Assembly (NCBI GenBank): GCA_020072565.1
Contig: JAIQGI010000006.1
Location: forward strand, 62,001 to 126,000
Reading direction: 5' to 3'
Source of the DNA: Terriglobia bacterium
GTDB taxonomy: Bacteria > Acidobacteriota > UBA6911
DNA length: 64,000 nt
In this document: one piece after another, positions 31,474-43,438 of the stretch
How the letters are laid out: every line of letters starts with the position of its first letter
Numbering within the stretch: the first letter of the stretch is position 1
Notes under the pieces: model-generated
The model's input: only the letters and a program-made list of their open reading frames with translations
Databases searched by the model: none
What the model was told of the DNA's origin: nothing
Program-made: the position numbers and the translations under genes

Positions 31474-32955
31474 TCAGCTTTTCCGGGGGTGGCGTGCAAA
31501 ACGGCGGAGATCAGCAAGGGCGAGGACAAGCCGCATCAACGTCTTTGTTCTGCGGGAATTGGAGTACAAGTCGTTGACCGTGCCGAAAATGTCGAGCTTT
31601 TTTCTGGAGTAGGGAAACCACCACAGCTTCGACCTGGACAGCCTTTGACGTTCGGCGCTGATCACTTTGATGTTTGTGAGCTCGATCAGCCCGTAGCGGG
31701 AAAACATCCTTCCCCAACCGCTTTGCTTCCTGCCGCCCCACGGAAATTGGGGCAGGCCGACGCTGCTGTCGTTGATCCAGACCATTCCGGCCTGGATCTT
31801 TTGAGCCGTGAGGCGGGCATGGTTCAAGTTCCTGCTCCACACCGATGCTCCCAGTCCGGCGGCTGATTGATTTGCCTCCTGCAAGGCCTGTTCATCACCG
31901 CTCACCTCGCGAACGGCGACCAACGGCAACTGAGGCTCTTCCTGCATGACGCGCATGCCGGGTGACGCCGCCGCGACGATGAACGGCGCGCCGAAGCCGG
32001 CTGCGTCGAGATCGCGGAGTGGCCCCGCGGGCGACCAGACTCGCGCTCCCTTGCTGATCGCATCCCGGAGCAATTCACGCGCCCTCGCGGCGGCCGTGCC
32101 CCCTGAAAAAGTGCCGACTTCGGTGGCCGGATCCCACGGATCGCCGACGTTGATTGCGGCAACCTCGTTTGTCAGCAGGTCCAGAAACATGCGGCTTACA
32201 CTCTTGTGAACAAAGACTCGCTTGGTTCCGACACAGCTGCGCCCGTCGGCATAGAACGCGCTCCAGGCAATTCCCCGGGCGGCTAAAGAAAGGTCGGCAT
32301 CCGCGCAAATGATGGCCGAACTGCCGCCGCCGAGTTCAAGGACGCACGGCTTGAAATAAAGGGCGCACGCTTCCGCAACCTTGCGCCCGGTTTCACAGCC
32401 TCCGGTGAAAATGACCTTTTGAACGTCCGTGCGCGCGATGAGTCGTTCCGCGACGTCAGGCCCGCCTTCAACCACTTCGACGGCGCCTGCCGGAAGACGG
32501 GCCGCCACGAACAGTTCACCTATCAAGGATCCGGTTCGCGGGCAGCGTTCGGAGGGTTTTATGACAACGCAGTTGCCGCAGAGCAGCGCTGCGCACGCCT
32601 GCATGACCGGAAGCGAGAAGGGAAAGTTGGACGGCCCGATTATAAGGACGACTCCCAGCGGTTCGAAACGAACGGTGTTGGATTTTGCCCAAAATCCAGG
32701 ACGCCAATATCGGAACCGCTCGTCCCGAAGCCAGCGTGGAGCCATTTTTGCGGAAAATCGCAGCATTTCCAGCGCACCGGTCAGTTCCTGGTTGACTACT
32801 TCCGTGATCGGCCTTCCGGTCTCCTCCGTGACGGCATGCGCGATCTCCCGGTGACGCAGGGCGATGAGCTTTCCCAGATGCGCGATGCGGCTCCGGCGCG
32901 CGCGCAGGGTGAGATCGGGCCAGGACGATAAGGTCGGCTTGGAGATCGCCTTCAT
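31474..32955 (-). CDS. NAD(P)-dependent aldehyde dehydrogenase
   Basis: 493 residues of the ALDH superfamily. IGPSNFPFSLPVMQACAAL and VIKPSERCP mark the Rossmann fold, FTGGCETGRKV the cofactor loop. The general base is Glu207 (LELGGGSS) and the nucleophile Cys241 (GRSCVGTK), spaced 34 residues as usual. The canonical ELGGKSP lysine is replaced by Gly. The last 60 residues (from about 430) extend past the usual end with a basic helical tail. The gene is the last of a tight leftward operon and overlaps the PLP decarboxylase gene by four bases (ATGA), so it may oxidise an amino-aldehyde or fatty aldehyde made there. Substrate is inference. Confidence 0.92.
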   Translation of the reverse strand: MKAISKPTLSSWPDLTLRARRSRIAHLGKLIALRHREIAHAVTEETGRPITEVVNQELTGALEMLRFSAKMAPRWLRDERFRYWRPGFWAKSNTVRFEPLGVVLIIGPSNFPFSLPVMQACAALLCGNCVVIKPSERCPRTGSLIGELFVAARLPAGAVEVVEGGPDVAERLIARTDVQKVIFTGGCETGRKVAEACALYFKPCVLELGGGSSAIICADADLSLAARGIAWSAFYADGRSCVGTKRVFVHKSVSRMFLDLLTNEVAAINVGDPWDPATEVGTFSGGTAAARARELLRDAISKGARVWSPAGPLRDLDAAGFGAPFIVAAASPGMRVMQEEPQLPLVAVREVSGDEQALQEANQSAAGLGASVWSRNLNHARLTAQKIQAGMVWINDSSVGLPQFPWGGRKQSGWGRMFSRYGLIELTNIKVISAERQRLSRSKLWWFPYSRKKLDIFGTVNDLYSNSRRTKTLMRLVLALADLRRFARHPRKS

Positions 32956-34361
32956 CGGGCCTCCTCGTTCAGTTCGCGGCCGATCCTCGTCGAGACATCT
33001 CTGGACACCACATCTTCAAACGTCTCGCGCCTGCGCGCGAGTCTCGGCATGCCTTTTTCGATCATCACGATTGCGGGTCGCGGCCCGGCAAAGTTGTTCC
33101 CGAGCGCCGTGAAGTAGGCGCCGGCATCCATGACTGCGATGATATCGCCGGCCTCGAGGACTGGGAGATCCTGTTTCATGGCGACCAGATCGAGCGGTGC
33201 CGGAAGATTGCCCACGAGGTCGTATCTTGCGGTCCGCCCACCTTCGGACTTGTTCGCAATCAGCACTGCATGGCGCTCACCGAGCAGGAGCGGCGAAAGA
33301 CTCATCGCGCCGGCATCACAAACAGCGACCTCCGTGCGGTTCGTCCTCTTTTTCAGAAGAACGACTTTCATGAGCAGAAGCTGTGAGGAAGCCACCAGCG
33401 CGCGCCCCGGCTCGACATAAATGGCCGGCATACCGACTCCATGCCTGCGCGCGAAGCCGTGCAGAGTCGCCGAGAGCGCGCCGGCGATCTCCTTCAGAAG
33501 GGTGTCCTGTGTGTATCTGTCCGGCTGCCTGGGGGGGCGGCCCCAGCCGAAGAAGCGAATCGCTTCCCACAGATCGAACTCCTTAAGCGTAGGCGTGCTG
33601 AAGCCTCCGCCTATGTCCAGGATCGCGGGCTGAAATCCTCTGTCGTTCACCTCCATCCACATTTTGAGGGCGGTCTTCAGGGCTGCTTCATAAGGCCGGG
33701 CAGAGCGTACACCCGAACCGATGTGAAAATGCAATCCCCTGAGCCTGAGCAAAGGGTCCCCGTGCAAAATGCGCAGGGCTTCTTTCCAGTCGCCCGCCTC
33801 CGAGGTAAAACCGATGTGGCTCTGCCGCGAGCCGGCGGAAAGGGTGAAATCGAAACGACTCTTCGACAGACAGGGGTTGATGCGCAGGCCTACATTCACG
33901 GGTCTTTCCTGCCCAGCGGCAATCTGCCGCAGGCTGCGGAGCTCCTCCACGCTCTCCACATTGATCAGCGCCACATCCTGCAGGACCGCCTGACGCAGAA
34001 GTTCCGGCGATTTCACCGACCCATTCACAATCATGTTGCGGCCGGCGACGCCGATCCCCCTGGCCAGCCAGAATTCGAACTCCGAAATGACCTCGGCGCC
34101 GCATCCCAATGCGGCGATAGATCGCAGAAGGTCGGGAACCGGATTGGTTTTATAAGAAAAGAAGAGCCTGGCCTCGAGGCCTTCAGCCCGAAAGGCTCCC
34201 AGCAGGGCCTCATGAGATTGTTCAAGGAGAGCCGCATTGACAACATACAAAGGCGTGCCGTGCGTTCGGGCGAGCGCGGTCAGGCTGCAGCCGTTCCAGA
34301 ACAGCTCCAGCCCACGGCGTTCAAGATTCCATGGTGAGATGTCGCGCATCATGCCCTTCAT
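32952..34361 (-). CDS. Type III PLP-dependent decarboxylase (LysA/ornithine decarboxylase-like)
   Basis: 469 residues from ATG 34361, chosen because it overlaps the upstream stop as ATGA; ATG 34352 is a possible alternative. The alanine-racemase-type barrel has the PLP lysine in FFSYKTNPVP, the phosphate and substrate loop LHFHIGSGV, ILDIGGGFS, the EPGR motif (YVEPGRALV), and in the C-terminal beta domain CDAGAM and MDAGAYFTALGNNF. These fit decarboxylases for diaminopimelate, ornithine, carboxynorspermidine or carrier-bound amino acids. The SYKTN form of the lysine motif differs from the AxKAN of true LysA, so a secondary-metabolite or lipid-linked substrate is more likely. No lysine or polyamine genes are nearby. 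Confidence 0.88.
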   Translation of the reverse strand: MKGMMRDISPWNLERRGLELFWNGCSLTALARTHGTPLYVVNAALLEQSHEALLGAFRAEGLEARLFFSYKTNPVPDLLRSIAALGCGAEVISEFEFWLARGIGVAGRNMIVNGSVKSPELLRQAVLQDVALINVESVEELRSLRQIAAGQERPVNVGLRINPCLSKSRFDFTLSAGSRQSHIGFTSEAGDWKEALRILHGDPLLRLRGLHFHIGSGVRSARPYEAALKTALKMWMEVNDRGFQPAILDIGGGFSTPTLKEFDLWEAIRFFGWGRPPRQPDRYTQDTLLKEIAGALSATLHGFARRHGVGMPAIYVEPGRALVASSQLLLMKVVLLKKRTNRTEVAVCDAGAMSLSPLLLGERHAVLIANKSEGGRTARYDLVGNLPAPLDLVAMKQDLPVLEAGDIIAVMDAGAYFTALGNNFAGPRPAIVMIEKGMPRLARRRETFEDVVSRDVSTRIGRELNEEAR

Positions 34362-35794
34362 CGTCGAAACGCGAAAAAGGCCGTTAGAAAGATGGCAATG
34401 ACGACAAACAGCGCCGACTTGTGCACCATCCGTCGGAATGCAACCACTGCCCCGGAGCCTGCTTCTAGCCACCGGGGATAAAAAAAGCCTGCCACGATCC
34501 ACGAAGCAACTGCCCATAGGATTCCCGCAACCACATCTGCCACGATATGCTGCTTCACGAACACGGTAGACAGCGTGATGAGTGAGGCCGCAAGAAACAA
34601 TGAAAAATCAGCGACCCTGGTCAGCCCCTGTTTCCTGCATATGAAGTAGACCAACCACGGGAAAATGACGTGCAGGCTTGGCAAATTGTTGGCTCCGGGA
34701 TGGAAATCGATCACATATTCAAGCTCGAGAGCACGTTCGGAGATGCTCCTGCCGAGTTCGGGTTTGGGAAACGCGACCGGAAAAGCTGCGTACACCACGA
34801 ACGCTGTCAGGTTGGCAAACAGCAGGCTCAGCAGCCCGCGATTGACGCGATGCCAGTCTCTCGCGATAAAAGCAACCAGGAAGGGAAAAACATAGCAAAA
34901 CAGATAGGGCCAGATAAACGCCGGGATCAGGGGGATCATCCGATCCAGCGAACCTGTCAGATCGTGGGTTGGAAGCGTCGCTGTATAGCGGCCAATCGCT
35001 TCAAACGCGATGATCCACAGAAGGTACAGCAAAAGACCCAACTTGATGTAAAATCCCCGCTCGTTGCTTGCCGCTGCATCGCGAGGCGGTTCAAACCGCG
35101 AAGTGTGTGTTGGAGAATCCTCTCCTGCATCCTGTTTTTTCTCATCCGCCGCCTGCCGCCCCCCGTCCCGCACATTTCGTCTGCCGAGTAATCGGAGAAG
35201 GCCGGCAACGACGGACTGCGTCACCCGGGCAACCGGTCGCGATAGGGCCTTCGGCAGCCATATGGGCGTGGCGCTACGATAGTCCCGGTAGCGGCTGCCG
35301 AACCGGTCGATCAGAAGCGGCTCTTCATAGAACAACGCATAGGCGGTCCAGCCGATCAAAAGAAGCGGACCGCTGAAGGCGAGCGACCAGAAGGAATTCA
35401 TAAGGAGGGCCGCACCGGCAAACACTGCATTGTAGCCGACATAGATCGGGTGCCGCAGGTACCTGTAGCAGCCGCCGGTTACGAATTTGGTGGGTGGCAA
35501 GTGAGAAATCGGCAGCCCTTTACCGCGCGACCATAGCTGCGCCATGGCAAGGATCATAAGCAGGAAACCGGAGAGGGCCAGGCAACAGCCGACGGCTCTC
35601 ATGATCGTGTTCTCAGCCAGAGAAACCGGCAAGAGCACGTCGAGCCGGAATCCTGTCGTGAAGAGAAGCACAGGCAGCAGCACCCAGAAGACCGCGACAT
35701 AGGCAACTATGGTGAAAGCCGTGCGCACCGCGCGCCCGGTTATCACGCTCTTCTGTGCCGGCAGAGCCGAATGCGACATGTCGCCGTCTTTCAA
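34358..35794 (-). CDS. Fusion of isoprenylcysteine carboxyl methyltransferase-like and PAP2 domains
   Basis: 478 residues, almost entirely membrane-embedded. Residues 1-200 have four TM helices with the ICMT/phospholipid methyltransferase signature GGCYRYLRHPIYVGYN and the later FYEEPLLIDRFGSRYRDY. A hydrophilic linker (about 205-240) follows. Residues 245-470 form a PAP2-type domain with NNLPSLHVIFPWLVYF and STVFVKQHIVADVVAG, which match the PSLH and HxxxD active-site motifs of Aur1/inositol-phosphotransferase-like PAP2 proteins. Such a protein could methylate one lipid and move a phospho-headgroup on the same or another. The gene starts 9 bp after the CrtC-like gene and overlaps the decarboxylase gene by four bases. 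Confidence 0.88.
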   Translation of the reverse strand: MKDGDMSHSALPAQKSVITGRAVRTAFTIVAYVAVFWVLLPVLLFTTGFRLDVLLPVSLAENTIMRAVGCCLALSGFLLMILAMAQLWSRGKGLPISHLPPTKFVTGGCYRYLRHPIYVGYNAVFAGAALLMNSFWSLAFSGPLLLIGWTAYALFYEEPLLIDRFGSRYRDYRSATPIWLPKALSRPVARVTQSVVAGLLRLLGRRNVRDGGRQAADEKKQDAGEDSPTHTSRFEPPRDAAASNERGFYIKLGLLLYLLWIIAFEAIGRYTATLPTHDLTGSLDRMIPLIPAFIWPYLFCYVFPFLVAFIARDWHRVNRGLLSLLFANLTAFVVYAAFPVAFPKPELGRSISERALELEYVIDFHPGANNLPSLHVIFPWLVYFICRKQGLTRVADFSLFLAASLITLSTVFVKQHIVADVVAGILWAVASWIVAGFFYPRWLEAGSGAVVAFRRMVHKSALFVVIAIFLTAFFAFRR

Positions 35795-35803
35795 AATTCC
35801 TGC

Positions 35804-36700
35804 CTACGCCCAACGCCACGAAACTCGTTCATGAATTGCCCAGCCTCTGAAGACGCCCCCGCCGATACTCAATTCCGCTTCGGCGGCCATTTTCTTCTCG
35901 ATGGGATTGCCCGACGATCTTGCCAGACACTTCGCAAGCAAGCGGGATTTTATCTCCCCTCCGGCGGCAATCGCCCCTTGTTCGAGTATATGCCTCTGCG
36001 CGAGGTGCAACGTGAAGCTCTCGTGCCGGAGTACGGTTATTGGATCACTCTTATCAGGTTCGATGGCAAACTCCTGGAATTCCTCCGTCGCAGGGTCGGC
36101 AATCCCCCTCCGCAACATGGCAAATTGGAGGCAGGTGCCATCGATCATGCGCATGCGATCAAACACCACCGTGTGGCCGCCGCAGTGGGCGCGGCCCCAG
36201 GCGAGTTCGGCAATCGGCAGCCGCCAGGGTGGCAGCGTCATCTCCACTATATCCTGATAGCCCGTTCCCCTCACGTGCCACTCCTGCCGATCGGATCGAA
36301 TCACGCCTTCGGCGGCCGCCGCCGGCGCAGGCACGTTCCATGAGAGACATTGTCCGTTCCTGCGCAAGAGCACCCCGTCCTCTCCGGGAGCCCAGGATTC
36401 CCCCGCTGATTGGTACCGGAGATCGATCTCGAGTTGCGGGAGTTCAAGATGGACGTGTGAGCCACCGCTCTCATTGGCTAAAAAGCTGCGTCCACACGCG
36501 GCGCTTCGGCTCGAATCAAGCAGCGCGACTCTGCGGTTGATCGAAGAGCGAATTGATTTGCCGTCCGCCGGTGTAAGGTGCGCCGAGACATTCCCCCAGC
36601 GTATGCCGGCGATTCTGGCCGCAATGAAATAGATGTAGAGTATGACGCCGTCATCACTGATGAGATCGAGATACCACTTCTTGAGATAGAAGGGAATCAT
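35804..36700 (-). CDS. CrtC/AttH-like lipocalin protein (carotenoid 1,2-hydratase-like)
   Basis: 298 residues without a signal peptide. The opening YLKKWYLDLISDDGVILYIY, the central CLSWNVPAPAA and GTGYQDIVEMTLPPW, and LPIAELAWGRAHCGGHTVVF follow the layout of the hydroxyneurosporene synthase CrtC/AttH family, two stacked lipocalin-like domains that bind hydrophobic substrates. The usual GTGYHDHxWG histidine is replaced (GYQDIVE), so hydratase activity is doubtful. Its ATG overlaps the stop of an upstream truncated frame. No carotenoid genes are nearby. A role in binding or modifying a lipid or isoprenoid intermediate for the operon is inference. Confidence 0.7.
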   Translation of the reverse strand: MIPFYLKKWYLDLISDDGVILYIYFIAARIAGIRWGNVSAHLTPADGKSIRSSINRRVALLDSSRSAACGRSFLANESGGSHVHLELPQLEIDLRYQSAGESWAPGEDGVLLRRNGQCLSWNVPAPAAAAEGVIRSDRQEWHVRGTGYQDIVEMTLPPWRLPIAELAWGRAHCGGHTVVFDRMRMIDGTCLQFAMLRRGIADPATEEFQEFAIEPDKSDPITVLRHESFTLHLAQRHILEQGAIAAGGEIKSRLLAKCLARSSGNPIEKKMAAEAELSIGGGVFRGWAIHERVSWRWA

Positions 36701-36882
36701 GGTTTCTCAGGCATCTCAGAGATTTGGAGCACACCCCGGCCGCCGGATGTACCGAACGACGGCAGGTCGAGATCCTTATAGGGCAGCCTTGGCTGGAAGT
36801 CAATGTGGTGCCGCAGATGGCCACTCTCAACCCGATGCCGCCCCGCCGGTCGCCGATTGCGACCGTTTGCGCCCAGAATCGA
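36697..36882 (-). pseudogene. 3' stump of the former first gene of the operon
   Basis: An open frame lacking any start codon near its beginning ends HHIDFQPRLPYKDLDLPSFG, then TSGGRGVLQISEMPEKP and a stop that overlaps the next ATG as ATGA. The coupling overlap and protein-like sequence imply the real 3' end of a gene whose remainder was lost; the frame is closed by a TGA just upstream. The family is not recognised. The rest of the gap, 36883-37166, shows nothing I can support. Confidence 0.5.
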
Positions 36883-37166
36883 AGATCAGGCCCGGGCACG
36901 ATAATCTATTTTGAGGGTGGACGTAAGGTGCTTTTCTCACAGTGGGTTCCTCGTTATGGCCTGCTCGCCGGATTTCCGAAACATCTGCCGGGTCTCGCCT
37001 GTGTGTTGTCCCAGTGCATCCCTGTTTAAGTATCCGCGAAACTTTTTTCCCGATCCTCCAACTTAATAGCTGGTGGCTTGGGGAGGCCCAGTGCCGTCTG
37101 GCTGATTCTGAGTTGCGGGCGGGTGGGCCAACAGCCCGGGAATTGGTCTGAGAGGCACTGTCCGAG

Positions 37167-37529
37167 ATGAGAAGTCAGGCTACACTCGTATGGGCAGTTA
37201 TCGCGAGCTTCCTTTATTGTGCCGTCTGCCTCCCGCTGGGTCACGTATGTCTTGATCAGTATGCAGATAGCTGGCATTCGGCGGCAGCGTATGTGGCGCC
37301 GGGGGTGATGGCAGATCACGACCCGAAGCAGACACCCGACCAAAGAAACGCCGTTTGTCAGGCCTGCCTCTGGTCCCAGACACTTTATCCGAGCCACATA
37401 ACCGTGGAATTGGCCGTCGAACGCACGGTTACGCCCTCCGCGATTCTCATCCATGCTCCCATAAGGACGCTCACGGACTTCTTCCAGTCCACCGCCAAGC
37501 GTGGTCCCCCCTTGTCTTCCGCAATCTAA
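37167..37529 (+). CDS. Small exported Cys-containing protein ahead of the efflux operon
   Basis: 120 residues with a signal peptide (TLVWAVIASFLYCAVCLPLG), then a His/Asp-containing stretch (ADSWHSAAAY, MADHDPKQ) and VCQACLWSQT with a Cys pair. The short, exported, CxxC-bearing form next to a metal-type RND operon recalls DUF2946-like proteins, some of which are linked to copper or metal handling. The assignment to that family is tentative. It is 119 bp upstream of the TolC-like gene on the same strand and may be co-transcribed. The ribosome site is weak. Confidence 0.6.
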   Translation: MRSQATLVWAVIASFLYCAVCLPLGHVCLDQYADSWHSAAAYVAPGVMADHDPKQTPDQRNAVCQACLWSQTLYPSHITVELAVERTVTPSAILIHAPIRTLTDFFQSTAKRGPPLSSAI

Positions 37530-37648
37530 GCCCTTTTTGCTTTTGGTCCCGGCAGCTTTCCCAAGCTGCCCTGCATCGCGCGCGGCTTCCATTTACCCTG
37601 TGCTGCATGGACCACGCGACGGCATTTATTGAGTCGAGGATAACCTCC

Positions 37649-38953
37649 ATGACTTCAGTCTCTATCGGGTTCGCCGCCTTATCGATCTTCCTCGTTTTGA
37701 CTGCCTCTGCCGGGGAGGCCCGATGCGACCAGGTTTCGCCTCCGCAAGGAAGCGCGCAAACGGCATCGAGGCTCACCCTGGAGGACGCGACCCGACTGGC
37801 ACTCGAACATAATCAATCTCTGCGCGCACAACGCCTTGCCATTGACCAGGCCAAGGCCAATGAAATCACCGCGGCACTCAAACCGAATCCCGTTTTTACC
37901 GACCTGAATGAGGATTTTCAGATCTTCAGTCCGAGCAACCTCACTTTGCAGAACCTCAGAACCAACCAGGAGTTCACCAGCTCGGTCACCTACACCATTG
38001 AGCGCGGCGGAAAGAGGCTGAAAAGGGTGCAGGTCGCGGAAGACACGACCGACGTCACGATCAAGGCCATCGCCGACAGTGAACGCCAGCTGAGATTTCA
38101 GGTGGCCCAGGCGTTCATAAACGTGCTGCTGGCCAAATCGAATCTCGCTTTCGCGCAGGAAGACCTGAAAGACTTCTCGCAGGTAGTGGACATCAACAGA
38201 CGACGCATGCAGGCGGGGGATATTTCTGAGGCGGATTATCTGAAGATCACGCTGCAACAGCTTCAGTTCGAGCAGGACGTTTCCGCGGCACAGGTGGCTC
38301 TGGTGCAGGGCAAGGCCGCATTGCGGCAACTGGTCGGATACGATACCGTCCCCGAGGACTTCGACCTCGACGGAGAACTCAAGCACACCAGGTACAACAT
38401 TGCCCAGGGAGATCTCGAAAAGGAGGCCCTGCTCTCGCGCCCGGATTTCCTGGCGGCGCAGAGCGCAGTCAAGCTCGCTGATGACGCGGTGACGCTGGCC
38501 TACGGAAACCGCGCCCGGGACCTCACTGTGGAATCAGAATACAAACGAAACGGCACCATCAACGGCATAGGAGTCGGCCTTTCAATCGAGATTCCCATTC
38601 ACGACCGGAATCAGGGTGAAATCGCACGCAGCCGGGCGGCCGCCGGCCAGGCGGTGGAAGCCGCCGAGGCAACGCGCGTCGGCGTTCTGACCGATGTCCG
38701 GAGCGGCTACGCGGGCTATAAGACCAGCGAAGAGGTGGCCGCGCTCTATGAGTCAGGCTATCTGAGCCAGGCGACACAATCCCGCGAAATCAGCAATTAT
38801 GCATATCAGCGGGGCGCGGCGAGCCTGCTGGATCTGCTCGATGCCGAACGGAGTTACCGGGCGACGCAGCTTGCCTACCGCCAGGCGCTGGCCGCCTTCA
38901 TGGTCAGCGTTGAACAAATCAACCTTGCGGTTGGAAGGAAGGTGATGCAATGA
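37649..38953 (+). CDS. TolC/CusC-family outer-membrane efflux protein
   Basis: 434 residues from ATG 37649; an upstream in-frame extension to 37355 overlaps the preceding gene and has no signal peptide. The signal peptide (FAALSIFLVLTASAGEA) is followed by the two outer-membrane efflux repeats: LTLEDATRLALEHNQSLRAQ and LRFQVAQAFINVLLAKSNLAF in the first half, LSRPDFLAAQSAVKLADDAV and IEIPIHDRNQGEIARSRAA in the second. It should form the trimeric outer-membrane channel of the efflux pump encoded by the next two genes. Its stop overlaps the adaptor ATG by four bases. Confidence 0.92.
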   Translation: MTSVSIGFAALSIFLVLTASAGEARCDQVSPPQGSAQTASRLTLEDATRLALEHNQSLRAQRLAIDQAKANEITAALKPNPVFTDLNEDFQIFSPSNLTLQNLRTNQEFTSSVTYTIERGGKRLKRVQVAEDTTDVTIKAIADSERQLRFQVAQAFINVLLAKSNLAFAQEDLKDFSQVVDINRRRMQAGDISEADYLKITLQQLQFEQDVSAAQVALVQGKAALRQLVGYDTVPEDFDLDGELKHTRYNIAQGDLEKEALLSRPDFLAAQSAVKLADDAVTLAYGNRARDLTVESEYKRNGTINGIGVGLSIEIPIHDRNQGEIARSRAAAGQAVEAAEATRVGVLTDVRSGYAGYKTSEEVAALYESGYLSQATQSREISNYAYQRGAASLLDLLDAERSYRATQLAYRQALAAFMVSVEQINLAVGRKVMQ

Positions 38954-40125
38954 GAATCCGAAGGCCGGTTCGAAATTGGATGCTGCTGGCGCTTGCTCCG
39001 GCAATGGCAATGGGCTCCAGTTCCTGTTCCAGTCCGGGCGCCAGGGCGAGCGCAGCAGCGCAGGAATATCAGACCACGCAGCCGACCCTGTTTACGGTGC
39101 CGGAAAATCAGCTGGCGCACCTGCAAATCAATCCGCTGCGGAAAGTGAACTGGCCGATCACGGTGCACACTACCGGGACGGTCGACTGGGACGCCGACCA
39201 CACTACACAAGCGATCGCGCAGGTCAGTGGACCCATCACCAGGATCCTGGTCGACACCGGATCCTCCGTGCAGGCAAACGATCCGCTGCTTTCCGTCTCC
39301 AGCCCCGACATCACCAATGCCATCGCTGCCTATCGAAAGGCCCGCAACCGCATGGACTTCCAGACCCGCACGCTGGATCGCAGCAAAGATCTGCTCGATC
39401 ACCGGGCCATAGCTCAAAAAGATCTCGAAAGCGCCCAGGCCGACTACAACGACGCTTCGACCGACCTCCAGAACTCCCTGCAGGCTCTGCGAATACTCGG
39501 AATCACCTCGAACGAGATCGATGCAGCGGAACATCAGGGAGTGCCGATCAATCCGGAGCTTGCCGTGCGCTCTCCCATCAGAGGGATGGTGGTGCAAAAG
39601 CTTGTTTTTCCGGGCCAGCTGATACAGGCGGGCGCCACCACCTGTTTCCTGATCAGCGATCCGTCGACAGTCTGGGTGCAGGGCCACATCTACGAGAAAG
39701 ACCTGACGTCCCTGCGCCTGGGCGATCCCGTCGAGGTGAGCAACGCATCTCTTCCGGGAATTCTGCACGGCGTCATCTCCAACATCGGAGCGATGGTCGA
39801 TCCCGCAACCCGCACCACCCCGGTTCGCATTGCAACCGCGAATCCAAAGGGGCTCCTGAAGAAAGATCTCTTTGTCGACATCGTCATTCACACGAGAACA
39901 AAGCGGGACATCCTGGCAGTGCCGACGTCGGCGGTTCTTTACGACGCCAGCAACCTTCCCTTCGTCTATGTCCAGACGGACGGCGGCAGATTTGCACAAC
40001 GCCAGATAACCACGGGAGCACAGAGAGACAGCGAGTTCGAGGTTTTGACTGGGCTCAAAGTGGGCGAAAAGGTGGTCTCCGAAGGAGCCGTCTTCTTGCA
40101 GTTCGCCAACACATTCCAAAAGTAG
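38950..40125 (+). CDS. RND efflux periplasmic adaptor (HlyD/CusB-type)
   Basis: 391 residues. An N-terminal hydrophobic signal ends near SSSCSS, possibly a lipobox. The membrane-fusion layout follows: a beta-barrel start (ITVHTTGTVDWDADHTTQ), a lipoyl half-motif (VSGPITRILVDTGSSVQAND), a coiled-coil hairpin (about 125-185), the second lipoyl half (VRSPIRGMVVQKLVFPGQLI) and the C-terminal membrane-proximal domain (LTGLKVGEKVVSEGAVFLQF). It bridges the outer-membrane channel and the RND pump. No Met-rich N-terminal copper-binding segment is visible. Confidence 0.93.
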   Translation: MRIRRPVRNWMLLALAPAMAMGSSSCSSPGARASAAAQEYQTTQPTLFTVPENQLAHLQINPLRKVNWPITVHTTGTVDWDADHTTQAIAQVSGPITRILVDTGSSVQANDPLLSVSSPDITNAIAAYRKARNRMDFQTRTLDRSKDLLDHRAIAQKDLESAQADYNDASTDLQNSLQALRILGITSNEIDAAEHQGVPINPELAVRSPIRGMVVQKLVFPGQLIQAGATTCFLISDPSTVWVQGHIYEKDLTSLRLGDPVEVSNASLPGILHGVISNIGAMVDPATRTTPVRIATANPKGLLKKDLFVDIVIHTRTKRDILAVPTSAVLYDASNLPFVYVQTDGGRFAQRQITTGAQRDSEFEVLTGLKVGEKVVSEGAVFLQFANTFQK

Positions 40126-40354
40126 CGGGCAGTTCGCTGGAACCGGGGTAATGAAAGTAACAGGAAACCAGGAGTCAGAAGAAAAGGCGGCGCTTGACCC
40201 GGATTATTCATGAATGTGCGACGAAAATTCAGTTTTGGAGGGGAAAAACGCCGACCGACGCCGACCGTTCGGTCTTGGTCGGCATGCAGGAGCCTTTGCC
40301 GCGCCGCAGGCGCCCCACTGTCTGCGTGCTGGCTCCTGACTCGCTAAGGTCTGT

Positions 40355-43300
40355 ATGATCCATCGAATCGTTTCCTTCGCACTTGCGCAGCGTTTCCTGG
40401 TCATCATGACGATGCTGTTCCTGATGATCTGGGGAGTTTATTCCTTTCAGAAGCTTCCCATCGACGCCTACCCCGACCTGTCGCCGCCGCACGTGGAGAT
40501 TATCACGCAATGGCCCGGGCACGCAGCCGAAGAGGTCGAGCGCCTGATCACGATTCCGATGGAAATCGAAATGAACGGCATTCCCGATATGGAGGCGCTG
40601 CGCTCCATATCGCTCTATGGCCTGTCTTCGGTTCAGATGAACTTCGGCTATGACGTCGATCCGTACTTCGTGCGCGCGCAGGCGCACGAGCGCATGGCCG
40701 ACGCGGCGGTGCCGGAGGGCGTAAGCCCGTCGCTTTCTCCCCTCTTCAGCCCGAGCGGCTTGATCTATCGTTATGTTCTGCAGAGCCCCGACCTGTCGCC
40801 CCAGGAACTCAAGACCATCCAGGATTGGGTGATCCAGCGCCGCTACCGCGCCGTCGACGGTGTGGCGGACGAATCGAGCCTGGGCGGCACCACGATGCAG
40901 TATCAGGTCCTGCTGGATCCGACCAGGCTGTTTTCCTACGGAGTCACGGTGCCGCAGGTCTTCCAGCAGCTGAGCAACAACAACGCCAACGCCGGCGGCG
41001 GATTCTACTCGCAGGGAGGGCAGTTCTACTACATCCGGGGGCTGGGGCTGGTGCGCAACCTGCAGGACATCGGCAACATCGTCCTTGCCGCCCACAACGG
41101 GATTCCCACCTATGTGCGCGACATCGCCAAAGTGGAAATCGGGCATGCCCCGCGCCTCGGGCAGTTTGGCTATATGTACCAGGATGATGCCGTGGAGGGC
41201 GTGATCCTGATGCGGGTCGGCCAGCAGGCGCAGATTGTTCTGAATAAGGTGGAAAAGGTCACCGAGGATCTCAACAAGCATGTGCTGCCGCCGAATGTAA
41301 AAGTGGTCCCTTTTTATGACCGGCATCAGCTGATTGCCGAGACTACCAAGACGGTGGAGCGCAATCTCCTGCGCGGCATGTTGCTGGTTCTGATCATCCT
41401 GGGTCTTCTACTGTTCAGCGCCCGGACGGCCCTGATCGTGGCCGTAACCATACCCTTCTCGCTGCTGTTTGCCTTCATCTGCCTCGACTGGAGGAACATT
41501 CCCGCCAACCTGCTTTCCATTGGCGCCATCGACTTCGGCATCATCGTCGACGGCGCGGTTGTGATGGTGGAAAACATTTTCCGCGAGCTGGCGCAACGCC
41601 ATGGCCAGAAATTCAGCGTCATCGATGTGATTCGGACCGCGGCCGGCGATGTGGAACGCCCGATATTCTACGCGATCGCCGTAATCATCGCGGGCTATTT
41701 GCCGATCTACGCCTTAACCGGCCCGTCGGGCCGGCTGTTCGATCCCATGGCCGACACGATGTCGTTTGCACTCCTGGGCTCGCTCCTGTGCTCGCTGACC
41801 CTGCTCCCGGTGCTTTGCGCATACTTCCTGCGCAGGCACATTAAGGAGCCGCGCATTCCCCTCTACGAGAGGGTCCGGGCCATGTACGGCTTTCTCCTCG
41901 GCTGGTGCCTCCGGCATCGCCTGATCACCCTGACAGTCTGCCTGAGCATCTTCGGCGCCTCGCTCCTGCTGATCCCCACCATCGGCGCGGAGTTCATGCC
42001 CCACCTCGATGAGGGCGCTCTCTGGGTGCGCGCCACGACGCCCTACACGATCTCATTCGATGAGGCTGCCAAGCTGGCGCCCGAGATCCGGCAAGTGCTG
42101 ATGAGCTTCCCCCAGACGACCGTGGTAGGCAACGAGCTGGGCAGGCCCGACGATGGCACCGATCCCACAGGATTTTTCAACGATGAGTTCTACGTCGGGC
42201 TGAAACCCTACGACGATCCTGCCTGGAAGGGGGAGATTCGCACCAAGCCGCAGCTCATCGATGCCATACAGCAGAAGCTCTCGGCATTCCCCGGCATCAT
42301 ATTCAACTACACACAGCCTGCGGAGGATGCCGTAGACGAAGCGGAGACCGGCTTGAAAAGCTCTCTGGCCGTCAAGATCTTCGGTCCGGATCTTGCGACT
42401 CTCGAGGGAAAGGCGAAGGAAGTCAAGAAAGTGATCTCCAATGTTCTCGGGATCACGCACATCACCATCGTTCAAGAGCTCGGCCAGCCCAGTTTGACTA
42501 TTGTGCCCAACCGCGACAAGATCGCTCAGTACGGCCTCAACGTCTCCGACATCAACACGCTGATCGAGACCGCGGTGGGGGGCAAAGCGGCAACCCAGGT
42601 CATCCAGGGAGAGCGCCAGTTCGATCTCATCGTCAGGATGCAGGAGCCTTACCGGCAGAATATGGATGCCATCAAAAACCTCCTGATTGCCACACCGGAT
42701 GGCCAGCATCTGCCCTTGAGCCAGTTTGCCGACATCCAGGTGACTAACGGCGCATCGTTCATTTATCGGGAGGCCAACTCGCGCTATATCGGAGTTCAGT
42801 TCAGTGTGGAAGGCCGCGACCTGGCCAGCGCCATCGGCGAGGCGCGCCGCGCCGTGGACGCACAGGTCAAACTCCCGATCGGATACACGCTGGACTGGGG
42901 CGGCGAGTACAAGGATTATCTGGCCGCCATCGCTCAGCTCAAGATCATCATGCCGCTGACCGTGCTCCTGATCATGCTGATCCTTTTCGCGCTTTACGGG
43001 AATCTGAAGTTCCCTCTGCTCATCATCTTCAGCGTTCTGGTCACGGTGCCCGTCGGCGGCCTGCTTGCGCTCAGGCTCACGCACACGACCTTCAGCGTCT
43101 CCTCGGGGCTTGGATTCGTGGCATTGATGGGAGTGACGGTCCAGACGAGCGTGATTCTCTACTCGTTCATCAACAAGCTTCGCCTGGAGGGGAAGGACAT
43201 CCTGATTGCCACGTACGAGGCATCGCTGCTGCGCCTGCGCCCCATTCTCATGACCGCACTCGTGGCCTGCCTCGGCCTGCTGCCCGCGGCCATGTCGACG

Positions 43301-43438
43301 GGGATCGGCAGCGACTCGCAGAAGCCGTTCGCCATCGTAATCGTCGGCGGACTGCTTTCCCGCCTGCTGCTCTCGATATTCCTGGCGCCCGCCCTCTACG
43401 CGCTCGTCGCCCGCAAAAGCGATGTCCTGAAAGTGTAG
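40355..43438 (+). CDS. RND efflux pump, CusA/CzcA family
   Basis: 1027 residues of the heavy-metal-efflux RND type. The N-terminus SFALAQRFLVIMTMLFLMIW is TM1, followed by YPDLSPPHVEIITQWPGHAA. TM4 carries DFGIIVDGAVVMVEN, the proton-relay motif of CzcA/CusA proteins. Two large periplasmic loops and the second TM bundle (MPLTVLLIMLILFALYGN onward) are complete. It exports substrates from the periplasm using the proton gradient, with the adaptor and channel encoded just upstream. Metal specificity cannot be read reliably; the family handles Cu/Ag or Co/Zn/Cd. The final 78 bp are duplicated at 45403-45480. The 229-bp gap before it contains an imperfect GCCGACC/GGTCGGC hairpin. Confidence 0.95.
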   Translation: MIHRIVSFALAQRFLVIMTMLFLMIWGVYSFQKLPIDAYPDLSPPHVEIITQWPGHAAEEVERLITIPMEIEMNGIPDMEALRSISLYGLSSVQMNFGYDVDPYFVRAQAHERMADAAVPEGVSPSLSPLFSPSGLIYRYVLQSPDLSPQELKTIQDWVIQRRYRAVDGVADESSLGGTTMQYQVLLDPTRLFSYGVTVPQVFQQLSNNNANAGGGFYSQGGQFYYIRGLGLVRNLQDIGNIVLAAHNGIPTYVRDIAKVEIGHAPRLGQFGYMYQDDAVEGVILMRVGQQAQIVLNKVEKVTEDLNKHVLPPNVKVVPFYDRHQLIAETTKTVERNLLRGMLLVLIILGLLLFSARTALIVAVTIPFSLLFAFICLDWRNIPANLLSIGAIDFGIIVDGAVVMVENIFRELAQRHGQKFSVIDVIRTAAGDVERPIFYAIAVIIAGYLPIYALTGPSGRLFDPMADTMSFALLGSLLCSLTLLPVLCAYFLRRHIKEPRIPLYERVRAMYGFLLGWCLRHRLITLTVCLSIFGASLLLIPTIGAEFMPHLDEGALWVRATTPYTISFDEAAKLAPEIRQVLMSFPQTTVVGNELGRPDDGTDPTGFFNDEFYVGLKPYDDPAWKGEIRTKPQLIDAIQQKLSAFPGIIFNYTQPAEDAVDEAETGLKSSLAVKIFGPDLATLEGKAKEVKKVISNVLGITHITIVQELGQPSLTIVPNRDKIAQYGLNVSDINTLIETAVGGKAATQVIQGERQFDLIVRMQEPYRQNMDAIKNLLIATPDGQHLPLSQFADIQVTNGASFIYREANSRYIGVQFSVEGRDLASAIGEARRAVDAQVKLPIGYTLDWGGEYKDYLAAIAQLKIIMPLTVLLIMLILFALYGNLKFPLLIIFSVLVTVPVGGLLALRLTHTTFSVSSGLGFVALMGVTVQTSVILYSFINKLRLEGKDILIATYEASLLRLRPILMTALVACLGLLPAAMSTGIGSDSQKPFAIVIVGGLLSRLLLSIFLAPALYALVARKSDVLKV

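Follow-up and report, generated by a model that had tools for sequence, protein, structure and literature searches.

What common task could join a lipocalin, a two-domain membrane methyltransferase, a pyridoxal phosphate (PLP) decarboxylase and an aldehyde dehydrogenase is the question raised by an operon of a Terriglobia bacterium (Acidobacteriota), whose genome has a size of 7.46 Mb and a completeness of 98%. The operon is located in a 64,000-nucleotide stretch of DNA, hereafter the window, and consists of four leftward genes (positions 31474–36700, minus strand): LIP (35804–36700), the first gene, encoding a 298-aa lipocalin of the CrtC/AttH fold; FUS (34358–35779), encoding a fusion of a membrane methyltransferase (PEMT/ICMT) and a PAP2_3 domain; DEC (32952–34361), encoding a fold-III PLP decarboxylase in which the active-site cysteine is replaced by proline; and ALDH (31474–32955), encoding an aldehyde dehydrogenase with a short N-terminus. 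The initial annotation described these genes as packed with ATGA overlaps or a 9-bp gap, and this is borne out: the start codons at the FUS/DEC and DEC/ALDH junctions form ATGA overlaps, and LIP and FUS are separated by 9 bp with the alternative TTG start of FUS at 35794 or by 24 bp with the ATG start at 35779. A truncated fifth gene had also been placed upstream, with the suggestion that the locus may be decaying here. The frame concerned is a start-less stretch of 62 codons (36697–36885, minus strand), the stop codon of which overlaps the start of LIP. Pfam does not match it, the loci of the relatives contain nothing equivalent, and against 60 related genomes it gave a single match at E 0.008 and none better; it is probably not a gene. 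The truncated gene is rejected, and the decay that it had suggested is not supported. On the same side, a heavy-metal-type RND efflux operon (37355–43438, plus strand) adjoins the cassette divergently, and in another Acidobacteriota genome a broken LIP homologue (L185:621–7564) lies near genes that are CusA/CopA-like by eye; the vicinity of RND/CusA-type genes to LIP in these two genomes is possibly a coincidence.

LIP has no match in Pfam and NCBIfam, and four of its relatives have none in Pfam. Its AlphaFold model (pLDDT 78, pTM 0.79) is matched most closely by AttH (2ICH, E 9e-12; Foldseek), followed by Diels-Alderases, kievitone hydratase and 25-phosphosteroid lyase; all of its best 24 Foldseek matches belong to the CrtC/AttH-fold class (E 9e-12 to 3e-8, TM about 0.55), and profile-profile comparison links LIP to DA_N-type proteins (96.8%), so that the label of CrtC/AttH-like lipocalin under which the protein was first described is correct. 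With the lipocalins of this class, including AttH, carotenoid 1,2-hydratase, kievitone hydratase, the Diels-Alderases Fsa2, CghA and Phm7 and 25-phosphosteroid lyase, LIP shares its predicted fold and the motifs GYxD/E and WGR; it differs from them in lacking a Pfam family match, in being shorter than most and in the position of its gene, which adjoins those of membrane lipid enzymes. Since several members of the class are enzymes, LIP may be catalytic, beyond a mere carrier role.

FUS combines a PEMT domain (Pfam, 8e-13) and a PAP2_3 domain (1.8e-8; 34.9 bits, cut-off 27) in a single protein, as expected from the ICMT-PAP2 fusion originally recognised here. The model of its N-terminal domain resembles ICMT (5v7p) with a probability of 1.00 but an E of 0.013; past this domain the structure model is too poor for a fold assignment, and the PAP2 domain is assigned from sequence. 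The methyltransferase motifs RHPIYVGYN and EEPLL..FGSRYRDY (of the RHPxYxG and EE..L..FG..Y types) are present together with the PAP2 motifs PSLH and KQH..AD (His/His/Asp). Above-cut-off Pfam matches, catalytic motifs and an ICMT-like N-terminal model are shared with ICMT/PEMT methyltransferases and with PAP2_3 proteins of the Aur1/IPC-synthase type, from which FUS is distinguished by the presence of both domains in one protein and by its pairing with a lipocalin.

DEC contains the two domains of Orn/DAP/Arg decarboxylases (PF02784, 2e-35; PF00278, 2e-10) and keeps the PLP-binding lysine and the HIGSG, EPGR and GAY motifs; its fold-III domains and PLP-binding motifs are those of the diaminopimelate/ornithine-type enzymes LysA, DokD and BtrK. 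It differs from these in its sub-cut-off LysA score (252.2 bits against TIGR01048, cut-off 297.9), in the loss of the cysteine with the rest of CESGD and in its linkage to a lipocalin and PEMT fusions. In particular, the position of CE(S/T)GD reads PAPLD in an alignment to solved diaminopimelate decarboxylases that is ungapped at the active-site cysteine, and CESGD is retained by a further decarboxylase that the genome encodes (L002). The low score and the lost motif uphold the earlier view of DEC as a non-LysA enzyme, and on the same grounds its identification with LysA for lysine synthesis is rejected. Among 94 decarboxylases, 88 have cysteine at the active-site position, 5 have proline (the window protein and those of L095–L098) and 1 has glycine; the change to proline is confined to the LIP-linked enzymes. 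The glycine belongs to a protein of Myxococcaceae (L139:3828–5168) outside the LIP group and represents a separate loss. The loss of the cysteine in DEC could mean inactivity.

A first genome-wide scan with a single decarboxylase as the query gave no result; when the species genomes were scanned with a decarboxylase alignment, L095–L098 came top, at 38–41% identity. In these four genomes, two of Gemmatimonadota (L095, L096) and two of Myxococcota (L097, L098), LIP, DEC and a PEMT domain are adjacent. This first form of the cassette has the PEMT domain fused to a PlsC-type acyltransferase and not to PAP2 (read from the sequence in L096 and L098), its order and strand vary, with LIP divergent in L097 and last in L098, and an ABC ATPase and an ABC-2 permease follow it in L095 and apparently also in L096. 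In a second form, devoid of DEC, the gene next after LIP encodes a PEMT-PAP2-LGT fusion; this arrangement occurs in L184 (Acidobacteriota) and in six loci of Gemmatimonadota (L214–L218 and L220, with the contig ending inside the fusion in L214 and L217), and an eighth locus is inferred in G035, where one contig ends in LIP and another starts with a LIP-like tail and the fusion. The LIP homologues in L185, L219, L221 and L223 were left out of the cassette count, their neighbours being cut off or different. The window mixes the PEMT-PAP2 of the second form with the DEC of the first. Radical SAM proteins are encoded beside DEC in L098 (6754–7980) and beside LIP in L222 (809–2035), with 46% identity between them, and a distant radical SAM gene lies two genes from LIP in L050.

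Three traits co-segregate among these loci: the presence of DEC, intact PEMT motifs (in all five loci with DEC; degenerate in the seven readable loci without it) and the GYxD form of the LIP motif (again 5/5 with DEC, GYxE being found in all the PEMT-PAP2-LGT loci). GYxD is also present in two more LIPs without a visible partner. The sequences are related, and the three traits may reflect one ancestral split. Within the phylum, LIP is matched in 9 of 297 genomes, strongly in only 4, and at the thresholds used none of LIP, FUS and DEC is matched in the only other genome of the genus examined; the distribution is patchy, with horizontal transfer as a likely but hypothetical cause. The initial annotation took the four genes as probably one unit, to be checked by their co-location in other genomes, and named as contrary evidence a gene order conserved nowhere or relatives acting in unrelated known pathways. 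LIP, the methyltransferase fusion and DEC do recur jointly, in two other phyla with two genomes each, and nothing of the contrary kind occurred for these three genes; ALDH is in no relative's cassette. The gene set is beyond chance, its neighbourhood being conserved in three phyla with the exception of ALDH.

The nature of the substrate is suggested by the fusion partners of PEMT, which across loci are PAP2, PAP2-LGT, PlsC or BtaA, without exception enzymes of lipids or lipid phosphates, and by the decarboxylase tree. Here the LIP-cassette members are placed together (88/73; 100/99 with only the BtaA group for comparison), the window DEC being on a long branch with moderate support, and are adjoined by a BtaA-operon group (88/82). 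The operon of these nearest decarboxylases is long and conserved; it comprises DAGK, a PEMT-DUF3419 (BtaA) fusion, a protein of unassigned family (GNAT-like by eye, with no clear Pfam match), the decarboxylase, an aldolase-II protein and a MacB-like ABC transporter, the last being present where read. A decarboxylated homoserine lipid is its possible product. Loci of this type are spread over many phyla (L086, L088, L089, L108–L113, L118, L122, L125, L127, L130, L132, L134, L137, L138 and L144); in Methylomirabilota (L099:6587–12333) a decarboxylase is accompanied by a GNAT-like protein, BtaA and proteins that are desaturase-like and CarS-like by eye. In L090, a decarboxylase 42% identical to the window DEC over the C-terminal half is followed by a 528-aa protein (931–2517), LuxE/PaaK-like by eye and with no Pfam match. 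Betaine-lipid synthesis by BtaA/BtaB is thus connected with the locus through the sister decarboxylases, which adjoin PEMT-BtaA fusions, and is separated from it by the window genome, in which no match to BtaA/DUF3419 was found at 98% completeness; a BtaA-made homoserine lipid is therefore rejected as the substrate in this organism, and a search of seven cassette genomes found BtaA in just one. Synthesis by BtaA/BtaB, as described, is not known to include a decarboxylation.

The reading tentatively preferred here, with somewhat less than even confidence, is that a recurrent lipid-tailoring module, of which the operon represents one form, decarboxylates and methylates an amino acid headgroup linked to a lipid; the genes, their coupling and conservation, the folds and the motif states are observed, and we infer the substrate, the order of the steps, the chemistry and the role of ALDH. 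LIP would bind or chemically prime the hydrophobic substrate for the membrane-embedded methyltransferase, whose partner would be a lipid-phosphate enzyme (PAP2, handling the lipid phosphate, in the window; PlsC or PAP2-LGT in the relatives), DEC would take the carboxyl group off the headgroup, and the PEMT domain would methylate the product. A lipid-bound amino acid is proposed mainly because the LIP and BtaA groups both pair a decarboxylase with a fusion of PEMT and a lipid enzyme. Since the cysteine that normally helps to protonate the carbanion is proline in DEC, its product may be an aldehyde and not an amine, and the additional ALDH of the window would oxidise this aldehyde. In a eukaryotic ornithine decarboxylase mutant without this cysteine, the reaction is reported to be diverted to an aldehyde. 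PLP decarboxylases can perform decarboxylation-dependent transamination or oxidative deamination with the formation of aldehydes (PMC7497351). The lipid-tailoring reading is favoured by the four genomes with LIP, DEC and PEMT, by the eight loci with LIP and PEMT-PAP2-LGT, by the fusion partners of PEMT, by the BtaA sister group, by the states of the PEMT and LIP motifs that go with DEC and by the restriction of the change to proline to LIP-linked enzymes. Against it count the lack of BtaA in the window genome, the confinement of ALDH to the window, the long branch of the window DEC, the possible inactivity of an enzyme without the cysteine and the possible origin of the three traits in one split; moreover, no amino-acid lipid synthase is linked to the cassette, and, because the eight LGT-type loci are without DEC, the step shared by the module need not be decarboxylation. 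A route to a modified amine-containing lipid or isoprenoid had been guessed at the outset; a unit acting on a lipid is supported by the recurring LIP/PEMT-fusion loci and the BtaA-linked sister decarboxylases, and an amine-containing lipid is a hypothetical product.

An isoprenoid target (carotenoid, hopanoid or polyprenyl phosphate) is unlikely; in that case LIP would be a phosphate lyase or a hydratase resembling CrtC, PAP2 would serve as polyprenyl phosphatase, and the methyltransferase would act on the isoprenoid or on an attached group. The fold matches of LIP with kievitone hydratase and 25-phosphosteroid lyase agree with such a target, as do the two squalene/phytoene-synthase genes of the window genome and, 5–7 kb off the cassette, a squalene/phytoene-synthase-type gene in L098 and an amine-oxidase-type FAD enzyme in L097. 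The GYxD residue of LIP presumably maps onto the acidic aspartate of the CrtC hydratases. The motif resembles the acidic-Asp logic of these enzymes (PMC6013536); however, no isoprenoid gene is conserved within the cassettes, and glycerolipids are indicated by the fusions to PlsC and LGT and by the BtaA sister operons.

ALDH, found in a cassette only in the window, is an aldehyde dehydrogenase (Pfam Aldedh, 1e-110) that begins at profile position 41 and keeps the catalytic Cys and Glu motifs. Among the 25 NCBIfam matches listed it is below every equivalog cut-off, the top-scoring neighbours being aminobutyraldehyde and succinic semialdehyde dehydrogenases, and the relatives have no equivalent within their cassettes; an ALDH-like gene of L095 was not counted, as it lies more than 3 kb from DEC, past an opposite-strand gene, and has 26% identity. 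These neighbours, the overlap of the DEC and ALDH genes and the eight loci that have LIP-FUS without DEC would be consistent with two functions on one transcript, namely a LIP-FUS lipid module and an ordinary amino-acid or amine pathway in which decarboxylation by DEC is followed by aldehyde oxidation. This is nevertheless unlikely: DEC adjoins LIP and PEMT in four genomes without such an ALDH, its cysteine is lost only in the LIP-linked context, and a normal decarboxylase leading to an ALDH would also need an amine oxidase or a transaminase. Somewhat less likely still is an exported lipid-like small molecule, made as a specialised metabolite in place of a bulk membrane lipid, given that no core synthase (NRPS, PKS or terpene cyclase) is conserved in the cassettes and no transporter of the kind following those of L095 and apparently L096 adjoins that of the window, even though this transporter, the related radical SAM genes of L098 and L222 and the patchy distribution of the module would suit it.

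Another candidate, the myxobacterial elb ether-lipid operon, is also a bacterial lipid operon with an acyltransferase domain and is found in Myxococcota. It comprises genes for a HAD hydrolase, an ACS/FAR/ACP/AT multidomain protein and an epimerase, with no lipocalin, PLP decarboxylase or PEMT named, and is rejected since the composition of elbA-E differs from that of the window genes (PMC9131029). In fact, no named pathway matches the set, as was held from the beginning, and a literature search of partial coverage retrieved no paper describing it. The protein families are all known; their combination, the decarboxylase subgroup devoid of the cysteine and the link to a CrtC-fold lipocalin appear undescribed.

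A bolder extension of the lipid-tailoring reading, doubtful at present, is that the module makes an unrecognised class of bacterial lipids. The PLP enzyme, changed by the missing cysteine, would form an aldehyde from a lipid-bound amino acid by decarboxylative transamination or oxidation, the CrtC-fold lipocalin would be an obligate partner of the methyltransferase, and a second lipid of this kind, a decarboxylated homoserine lipid, would come from the BtaA-linked sister operons, which are seen in several phyla. Many uncultured bacteria have lipids without assigned genes, and the module represents a small, defined and testable set in three phyla; it also offers a natural fold-III decarboxylase without the usual active-site cysteine and connects lipocalins of the CrtC fold with enzymes of membrane lipids.
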